Source: Haloferax litoreum
GTDB lineage: Archaea; Halobacteriota; Halobacteria; Halobacteriales; Haloferacaceae
Direction: 5' to 3'
DNA: 64,000 nucleotides
Assembly: GCF_009674605.1 (NCBI RefSeq)
Contig: NZ_WKJO01000001.1
Span: forward strand, 558,001-622,000
Below, piece by piece: positions 7,389 through 20,585 of this stretch. The notes below the pieces were generated by a model. That model was not told the DNA's origin and did no database searches. It was given only the letters and a program-made list of their open reading frames with translations. Both the position numbers and the translations under genes were made by a program. Numbering within the stretch: position 1 is the stretch's first letter; each line of letters begins with the position of its first letter.

Positions 7389-7461
7389 GTCCTGATAGGG
7401 TAGTGGACTATCCTCCTGGCTTGCGGAGCCAGGGACCGGAGTTCAAATCTCCGTCAGGACG
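7389..7461 (+). tRNA. tRNA-Arg(GCG)
   Basis: The acceptor GTCCTGA pairs with TCAGGAC and the discriminator is G. The anticodon stem CTGGC/GCCAG closes the loop TTGCGGA, giving anticodon GCG for CGC codons. The T arm is CGGAG-TTCAAAT-CTCCG. The gene is followed by partial copies of its own 3' end (see the repeat entry). Confidence 0.93.
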
Positions 7462-7685
7462 TTTTCCTTCCGAACACTAACTTCCGAGAGACCTCCGTGT
7501 CTCTCGGTCTGTTCGGAGTACACGGACTCCAAGGAGAATTGAGCAGGGAGCGACGCGAACAGAGTGAGCAGAGTGACCGAGTTCAAATCTCCGTCAGGAC
7601 ACTCACTGCGTTCGGCCCTGACGTGCTCCACGCTCGCGATGCTCGCGTGGAACTCCGTCAGGACGTTTTCCTTCCGAACACTAAC
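7462..7685 (+). repeat. tRNA-Arg 3'-end copies with GARCNNNGYGA hairpins
   Basis: Two partial copies of the tRNA-Arg 3' end follow the gene. The copy at 7575-7600 matches the T arm and acceptor with one base deleted. The copy at 7653-7685 repeats, base for base, the 33-nt stretch 7449-7481, which covers the tRNA end plus 20 bp of its flank. Between them are hairpins. 7628-7633 CCACGC pairs with 7645-7650 GCGTGG around TCGCGATGCTC. 7592-7598 pairs with 7617-7623 around TCACTGCGTTC. The plus-orientation motif GAACAGAGTGA (7557-7567) has only a weak stem. A separate 9-bp hairpin (CCGAGAGAC/GTCTCTCGG) lies near 7483-7506. No gene is credible here; the minus frame 7443-7832 only translates the repeat. 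Confidence 0.85.
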
Positions 7686-14929: not shown

Positions 14930-15003
14930 GGGCTCGTGGTCTAGTTGGTTATGACGCGGCCTTTACAAGGCTGAGGTCGGTGGTTCGAATCCGCCCGAGC
15001 CCA
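14930..15003 (+). tRNA. tRNA-Val(TAC)
   Basis: The acceptor GGGCTCG pairs with CGAGCCC and the discriminator is A. The anticodon loop TTTACAA gives anticodon TAC for GUA codons. The T arm is GGTGG-TTCGAAT-CCGCC. It is immediately followed by hairpins and partial copies of its own 3' end. Confidence 0.93.
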
Positions 15004-15232
15004 TGTTTCTGCGACGAACGAAGTGAGTCGAGAAACATCACTGAGGGTGGGAGAACCTTGCGGCAACCGAGCGGAGCGAGGTTGACGGAGTGGCTCGAAT
15101 CCGCCCGAGCCCACTTCTGACGACACAACACGACGAGCGGAGCGAGGAGTCTGTGTCGTCTGAGTGGGCGACGAGGATTCGAACCCTACGAGGCGAGCGA
15201 AGCGAGTCTCGGTCCGGTTCGAATCCGCACGA
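15004..15232 (+). repeat. tRNA-Val 3'-end copies with GARCNNNGYGA hairpins
   Basis: Four hairpins share an 11-nt loop class. Loop 15016-15026 GAACGAAGTGA is closed by CGAC/GTCG and TGTTTCT/AGAAACA. Loop 15069-15079 GAGCGGAGCGA is closed by CAACC/GGTTG. Loop 15135-15145 GAGCGGAGCGA lies inside a 9-bp stem, 15119-15127 with 15152-15160. Loop 15195-15205 GAGCGAAGCGA is closed by CGAGGC/GTCTCG. Interleaved are a 23-nt copy of the tRNA 3' end at 15091-15113 (one mismatch), an inverted T-arm piece at 15175-15185 (GGATTCGAACC) and the matching direct piece at 15216-15226. The last two form an outer stem around the fourth hairpin. No gene is credible here. Confidence 0.88.
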
Positions 15233-15297
15233 TGCCTCTCACTCCCCACACCCACCACACGAACCTTTTTAGCCCAAACCGCACCCACTCCCGTCCA

Positions 15298-16482: not shown

Positions 16483-16556
16483 GCCGCCTTAGCTCAGACT
16501 GGGAGAGCACTCGACTGAAGATCGAGCTGTCCCCGGTTCAAATCCGGGAGGCGGCA
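16483..16556 (+). tRNA. tRNA-Phe(GAA), copy 1
   Basis: The acceptor GCCGCCT pairs with AGGCGGC and the discriminator is A. The anticodon loop CTGAAGA is closed by TCGA/TCGA pairing within ACTCGA...TCGAGC. The sequence is identical over all 74 nt to the tRNA-Phe at 20282-20355. Confidence 0.95.
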
Positions 16557-16640
16557 TTTTCCTGCGAACAACGTGAGCAGTGAAACTGCTCGCGACCGGT
16601 TTGAACCCGGGAGGTGACACTCCTCTGACTCTGCCGAAGA
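16557..16640 (+). repeat. decayed tRNA-Phe 3'-end copy with GARCNNNGYGA hairpin
   Basis: Loop GAACAACGTGA (16566-16576) is closed by CTGC/GCAG, extended by TTTT/GAAA after one mismatch. A second small hairpin GAGCAGT-GAA-ACTGCTC overlaps it. A 19-nt copy of the tRNA T arm and acceptor start follows at 16596-16614, differing by three transitions. It is the shortest and most worn of the four arrays. Confidence 0.75.
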
Positions 16641-20281: not shown

Positions 20282-20355
20282 GCCGCCTTAGCTCAGACTG
20301 GGAGAGCACTCGACTGAAGATCGAGCTGTCCCCGGTTCAAATCCGGGAGGCGGCA
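20282..20355 (+). tRNA. tRNA-Phe(GAA), copy 2
   Basis: Identical over 74 nt to the tRNA-Phe at 16483-16556: acceptor GCCGCCT/AGGCGGC, anticodon loop CTGAAGA, discriminator A. Confidence 0.95.
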
Positions 20356-20480
20356 CTTCTGTGATTTCAACCCGACGAGCGACGCGAGTCGCGGTGAAAT
20401 CCAGAATGCGACCCGACCGGATTTGAACCCGAGAAGACGAGCAGAGCGAGTCTTCGCTCGGTTCAAATCCGGGAGGCGGA
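20356..20480 (+). repeat. tRNA-Phe 3'-end copies with GARCNNNGYGA hairpins
   Basis: Hairpin 1 has loop GAGCGACGCGA (20377-20387) closed by CGAC/GTCG and, after a symmetric internal loop, GATTTCA/TGAAATC. Hairpin 2 has loop GAGCAGAGCGA (20439-20449) closed by AAGAC/GTCTT and CGAG/CTCG. It is further enclosed by an inverted T-arm copy (20417-20428) paired with a direct copy (20461-20472). The direct copy belongs to a 21-nt perfect duplicate of the tRNA 3' end at 20459-20479. Minus-strand frames here only translate the repeats. Confidence 0.88.
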
Positions 20481-20585
20481 ACCCGTTCATCTCCTCGAAC
20501 CGGTACAGACGAAAAGAAACCCGAGCGCAAACGCCACCAACGCAGTCGCTCACCAACACAGTCGCCGGAAGAGTAGAGTCCCAGT

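Follow-up and report, generated by a model that had tools for sequence, protein, structure and literature searches.

Hairpin units stacked behind tRNA genes of Haloferax litoreum and other Halobacteria look like miniature tRNA-targeting mobile elements

Several described systems resemble the short hairpin units that are the subject of this work. The SNJ2-type integrative elements (pleolipoviruses and their relatives), like the units, target and duplicate tRNA 3' ends, are flanked by a direct repeat of the tRNA 3' end and are present or absent at the same tRNA in related genomes, and two of them in the genome studied here use the same 22-nt block as the units, with an adjoining hairpin. Unlike these elements, the units carry neither a gene nor a tyrosine integrase, measure about 100 bp, are stacked at a third of the tRNAs and have an I1-core consensus (see below) that is absent from the virus attPs. 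The rtT/tyrT tandem repeats of Escherichia coli (Rfam RF00391) also follow a tRNA gene, and every repeat contains a short copy of its 3' end. The rtT model scores 17.7 bits here against a cut-off of 45, and the units differ from rtT in being of many kinds, at many tRNAs, and in having paired hairpins with an inverted T-arm. Integron cassettes (attC/attI) are alike in outline, namely in polar insertion at a fixed site, with the newest cassette nearest to that site, and in a strand-biased fold; moreover, the units possess an attC-like hairpin which pairs two copies of the site (I1, an inverted T-arm piece, with D, a direct copy of the tRNA 3' end, over tRNA positions 52-63) and rebuilds a double-stranded site from one strand. 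Nevertheless, the units have no ORF and their attachment site is a tRNA gene; membership is not claimed. Haloarchaeal MITEs and small mobile repeats (SMR-A/B and PATEs in Haloquadratum, PMC3119063) are short, non-coding, mobile and dependent on an enzyme acting in trans, as the present units would be, but they are not described as tRNA-targeted or as bearing a tRNA 3'-end copy. Finally, 'partial tRNAs' adjacent to full copies have been remarked upon in Haloferax gibbonsii LR2-5, the passages concerned giving no account of hairpin units, inverted T-arms, arrays or their spread (PMC7921747). This remark is the nearest that the open literature comes to describing hairpin arrays behind tRNAs (subscription papers and supplements lay outside the search), and the arrays are provisionally considered novel.

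The window, a stretch of 64,000 nucleotides from Haloferax litoreum (G000:C1:558001-622000, G000 being the window's own genome), contains such an array behind a tRNA-Val(TAC) gene (Table 1). The last 24 nt of this tRNA recur as a direct copy with one mismatch at 15090-15113, in agreement with the earlier note, which had pointed to a copy ending at 15113; the chance expectation of this match is about 2e-10 per 200 nt, and besides it and 15214-15237 (18/24) no site in the 64 kb exceeds 16/24 matches to the tRNA-Val end. The inverted and direct T-arm pieces of the distal part (15175-15185 and 15216-15226) were likewise correctly located and are exact matches, and the pattern of inverted plus direct T-arm appeared in 0/100 shuffles of the window. 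Chance repeats as the origin of the copies are ruled out by these shuffles, by the permuted 3' ends described below and by the expectation given above. Four hairpins fold in the order that had been claimed (z = -3.7); what did not stand is their treatment as separate elements, because a single hairpin, H2, has the inverted T-arm piece as one arm and the direct piece as the other. The array thus consists of two units of one plan, not of four independent hairpins, each unit running from an H1 hairpin through the inverted T-arm piece I1 and a core hairpin to the direct copy D, with I1 and D pairing to form H2. The inverted arm of unit 1 is degenerate, and a less decayed form of it, GGGCRGTCGAACC, is found in G004 and G006. 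Units of the same design stand in the window behind tRNA-Arg(GCG) and both tRNA-Phe genes (7389-7601, 16483-16619 and 20282-20482), where the direct copies match at 22, 19 and 23 of 24 positions.

Table 1. Features of the array behind tRNA-Val(TAC), in window positions
Feature	Position	Strand	Basis or occurrence elsewhere
tRNA-Val(TAC), host gene	14930..15003	+	ARAGORN; Rfam RF00005, 65.7 bits
D0, tRNA positions 52-73, segment that gets duplicated	14982..15003	+	edge profile, 148 units
Unit 1 H1 hairpin (type a), tandem-GA loop CGAACGAAGTGAG	15004..15037	+	fold; same module in G006, G013, G007
Unit 1 I1, degenerate inverted T-arm GGGTGGGAGAACC	15045..15057	-	position and pairing with D1
Unit 1 core hairpin (type alpha)	15058..15091	+	fold; common to G001, G004, G006, G008, G010, G013
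D1, direct copy of tRNA 3' end, one mismatch, closes unit 1	15092..15113	+	
Unit 2 H1 hairpin (type d)	15114..15168	+	fold; immediately follows tRNA-Val in other genera and in another family
Unit 2 I1, exact inverted T-arm	15175..15185	-	
Unit 2 core hairpin (type gamma)	15186..15215	+	also in tRNA-Arg(TCT), Arg(CCT) and Leu(TAG) units
D2, oldest copy (18/24 over 15214-15237), with a decayed acceptor part and an intact T-arm	15216..15237	+	

When all tRNA loci of the genome were gathered as stretches, 17 of the 50 tRNAs were found to have a copy of their own 3' end, defined as at least 18 matches to the last 24 nt, no more than 190 nt downstream and outside a neighbouring tRNA, against a mean of 1.05 and a maximum of 4 in a control in which the 3' ends were permuted among tRNAs; the tRNA-Val of the window, which entered via another locus, was counted separately from this tally. 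Ordinary tandem tRNA duplication was eliminated as a source, copies belonging to a neighbouring full tRNA having been taken out before counting. The median distance from tRNA to copy is 96 nt, the H1-I1-core part measures about 62-184 nt, and no unit is coding. Across 148 units with a good copy, identity, with positions counted from the tRNA end, stays at 0.95-1.00 between -22 and -2 and falls to background on either side, so that the duplicated block corresponds to tRNA positions 52-73, from the T-stem to the discriminator. I1 repeats positions 52-63 in inverted orientation and pairs with D over them; where tRNAs vary, it agrees with the host tRNA better than with others.

The units are spread over a whole order. 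A simple H2 pattern finds at least 119 stretches in species genomes, nearly all of them Halobacteria, and all 77 of the named haloarchaeal loci for which tRNA context is available have the unit behind the very tRNA whose end it carries, the loci outside H. litoreum having been picked partly by the unit pattern itself. An alignment of 45 H2 hairpins gives the consensus GGATTYGAATCAGGGAGC - hairpin - GCGACCGTGGTTCRAATCC, with an invariant tandem G.A, and a covariance model of I1-core-D built from it detects units in 29 of 33 Halobacteriales genomes and gives no match in 164 other Halobacteriota genomes. Two of the four Halobacteriales genomes without a unit at threshold show weak matches only, and one of the four (G019) has a congeneric species with 20 matches. 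Among the 26 matches listed for H. litoreum, 24 lie 35-270 nt behind a tRNA, one lies behind an intron-bearing tRNA-Trp and one belongs to a unit displaced by an integrated element. No Rfam family except tRNA reached its gathering score, and virus contigs scanned for the unit pattern returned just a tRNA-Glu unit (L091) and unrelated bacterial sequences, with no halovirus attP showing the pattern. In G095 (L295 6320-6480), a 13-nt tRNA-Arg-like 3' end is followed by H1, I1-core-D and a further H1. An integrase gene is about 0.5 kb away, and no tRNA was found within the 46 kb on that side. Bifidobacterium genomes (L120, L123) and similar viral contigs (L092, L095-L098, L101-L103) contain near-perfect tRNA T-arm palindromes with variable loops, nearly all without an adjoining tRNA gene and with a layout unrelated to that of the haloarchaeal units.

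The earlier note had read the array as repeated insertion of hairpin units at the tRNA 3' end and had proposed a comparison of orthologous tRNA-Val loci, an identical array in all relatives being the outcome that would speak against it. Instead, sites with one, two and three units exist among relatives, and both number and order vary. The sequence behind D1 of the window aligns with DNA at or right behind tRNA-Val in G012, G002, G021, G016 and G037 (92, 81, 83, 78 and 76% identity), starting at offset 0 from the tRNA end in the first four and near it in the last; G021 and G016 represent other genera and G037 another family. Since the distal unit adjoins the tRNA in these distant genomes, that arrangement is ancestral, and unit 1, the single 110-bp unit ending in a tRNA 3'-end copy that separates the two in H. 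litoreum, was added in front, which supports the insertion reading. The orders of the Haloferax tRNA-Val units, named by their H1 hairpins, are a-c-b (G006), b-c-d (G004), c-a (G007), a-b-d (G013), c-b (G010), a-d (G000), c-d (G008) and d (G012); unit d is last wherever it occurs together with a, b or c, the orders of which are mutually contradictory, and in G002 d comes first and an additional unit, of another type, stands behind it. Both M1-M2 and M2-M1 occur in the Met arrays, unit number varies at the Leu, Gln and His loci, and similar variation is seen at Met and Lys. The acceptor segment is perfect in 82% of non-terminal copies vs 58% of last copies (p = 0.001), and modules are exchanged between loci, core modules being shared across isotypes in a ratio of 118:38 vs 73:89 for H1 modules (p = 3e-8), although such p-values are optimistic, the genomes and species being related and not independent. 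Cores are bounded on both sides by near-universal T-loops and H1 by the isotype-specific acceptor, so wider sharing of cores is as expected from T-loop recombination; as a sign of it, the comparison of modules is suggestive only, cores being also shorter and more conserved. An AT-rich insertion cuts the second tRNA-Val unit of G007 inside its H1 hairpin (L010/L273). At tRNA-Arg(TCT) of other Haloferax (L268, L271), an array of a different kind is made of short tandem repeats of acceptor strand plus T-run (CCGTCGCGCTCTTTTG...).

From these observations we infer that units were inserted by an enzyme, as opposed to arising by recombination between short repeats. The latter account, in which no dedicated enzyme takes part, holds that units are gained, lost and reordered through replication slippage, template switching and homologous recombination between copies of the T-arm, among them alleles from other strains, at a site rendered prone to rearrangement by its hairpins and by tRNA transcription. 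The contiguous repeats of 22-24 nt suit it, yet the copy edges are identical for different tRNAs and no new unit is a tandem duplicate of the one beside it. It would also accommodate the short acceptor-plus-terminator repeats at tRNA-Arg(TCT) and one core inverted between its two T-arms (L170), as well as the tRNA-Val of G009/G010 (L023, L008), where the T-loop variant GACTCC is common to the tRNA and to the direct and inverted copies; the last case points to gene conversion or concerted turnover across orientations and means that copies can evolve in concert, which blurs insertion ages. On the other hand, the isotypes between which cores move have just about 10 bp in common at the T-loop, a very short stretch for homologous recombination, and the unit plan and core consensus hold throughout the order and not outside it. 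Such an account is, on this balance, rather unlikely.

A second question is whether the units act primarily as RNA. H2 folds better on the tRNA-coding strand in 150/167 units (RNA parameters), and a single-mismatch strand test is clear for H2 (G.T 87 vs A.C 19) and gives no clear strand signal for H1. Around the invariant tandem G.A of the core, the flanking pairs covary (36 double-change cells vs 9 in shuffles), and covariation in H2 is seen outside the tRNA-derived part. If the units were primarily functional RNAs or terminators, their hairpins, transcribed behind the tRNA, would aid termination or 3'-end processing or regulate tRNA maturation, array growth being secondary, and strand preference, invariance and covariation, together with the T-rich stretch that begins many units, are in keeping with this. 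However, strand bias is equally expected of a single-stranded DNA recombination site, and bias and covariation fit RNA and single-stranded DNA alike; moreover, the copied acceptor strand lies outside the hairpin and is nevertheless 97% identical, about two thirds of tRNAs have no recognisable unit, as have 4/33 Halobacteriales genomes at threshold, and unit number and order differ between close relatives. A primary role of this kind is regarded as unlikely.

The explanation that we favour, with moderate confidence, starts from the observed anatomy, sharp duplication edges, presence/absence and permutation of units, displacement of the ancestral unit, module exchange and order-wide spread, and reads the arrays as stacks of attP-like cassettes that lack ORFs and enter site-specifically at the T-loop/3' end, probably through SNJ2-type tyrosine integrases acting in trans. 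A unit would travel as a circle in which a copy of the tRNA 3' end (positions 52-73) stands between a left arm, formed by I1 and the core hairpin, and a right arm, the H1 hairpin. The unit would enter the tRNA gene by recombination at the T-loop/3' end, the copy that comes with it would rebuild a complete tRNA, and the former tRNA end, along with any older units, would be pushed downstream; the newest unit would thus adjoin the tRNA and the older copies would decay. Against this model it must be stressed that no unit encodes an enzyme, that a 110-bp circle is very small for double-stranded DNA and that 23-bp direct repeats would permit precise loss of a unit by ordinary recombination.

That an SNJ2-type tRNA-directed tyrosine integrase acts in trans is a reasoned guess, suggested by two tyrosine-integrase elements of H. 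litoreum which duplicate the same 22-nt block as the units. The first, of about 7 kb, lies at tRNA-Pro(CGG) (L294 139-7209, G000:C1:1366138-1373208; copy 21/22) and carries an SNJ2-type integrase, a BAT/HTH_10 protein and a DUF7344 protein; an older hairpin unit stands right behind its copy, the element having inserted in front. The second, of about 20 kb, lies at tRNA-Val(CAC), with the 3'-end copy at G000:C1:1635908 (L300 2909), the tRNA at 1655947 and an SNJ2-type integrase adjoining the copy. The two integrases are 47% identical to each other, and that of the Pro element, the sole one searched, is 42% identical to the SNJ2 integrase and 39-43% identical, over at least 97% of its length, to those of SNJ2, HHPV4, HRPV9 and related viruses. 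A strong hairpin stands beside the copy in both elements (z -4.5 and -2.8). Where annotated, virus attPs of this family of integrases mostly have a shared core of about 13 nt, and arm hairpins at z <= -2 are found in 5/16 arms vs 9% of background (p = 0.02), clearly in SNJ2, HRPV9 and the two H. litoreum elements and not in all members; LSV-48N has a longer shared block with a partial inverted copy to its left, its arms not being significant by z-score. The I1-core consensus of the units is absent from the virus attP arms, and beside plasmid-borne SNJ2-type integrases no tRNA end from the tRNA set was found. SNJ2-type integrases are reported to be restricted to Halobacteria (PMC8371274), a range that the units parallel. 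Co-occurrence with integrases was set aside as evidence, PF00589 integrases being present in all 14 genomes tested, with or without units, which makes it uninformative.

A different enzymology, distinctly doubtful, would be an integron-like cellular system in which a haloarchaeal tyrosine recombinase captures ORF-less cassettes next to the tRNA as single-stranded DNA hairpins, shuffling then taking place at T-loops; the tRNA gene would serve as attI, and I1-core-D would rebuild a double-stranded T-loop site from one strand. At tRNA-Leu(TAG) of G003, an element of about 10 kb with a tyrosine integrase and a large restriction-modification-like protein (L272 484-10387) has displaced an older unit behind it. 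The units were also considered as displaced attR ends of long elements, a candidate rejected on inspection of tRNA-Val in G007 (L273/L274) and of this tRNA-Leu, where the shared block is much longer (54 nt) and there is no unit-like arm. A further reading, in which every unit is a scar left when a full-size element lost its body and attL and attR became fused, is highly improbable, for although full-size elements are seen to insert at the same site and displace arrays downstream (L294, L272), independent deletions would have had to produce one and the same H1-I1-core layout at many tRNAs without leaving any genes behind, and the full-size elements examined lack the I1-core consensus at attR.

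Taken as cassettes inserted in trans, the units behind about a third of the H. litoreum tRNAs, and throughout the order, look like an unrecognised class of miniature tRNA-targeting mobile elements. If this is true, they would be, to our knowledge, the smallest site-specific integrative elements, and a whole archaeal order would harbour a pool of mobile units of about 100 bp on essential genes to which they do no harm. The units would then constitute a ledger of past insertion order and explain the 'partial tRNAs' of haloarchaeal annotations, and Haloferax would offer a genetically tractable host in which tRNA-targeted recombination can be studied.
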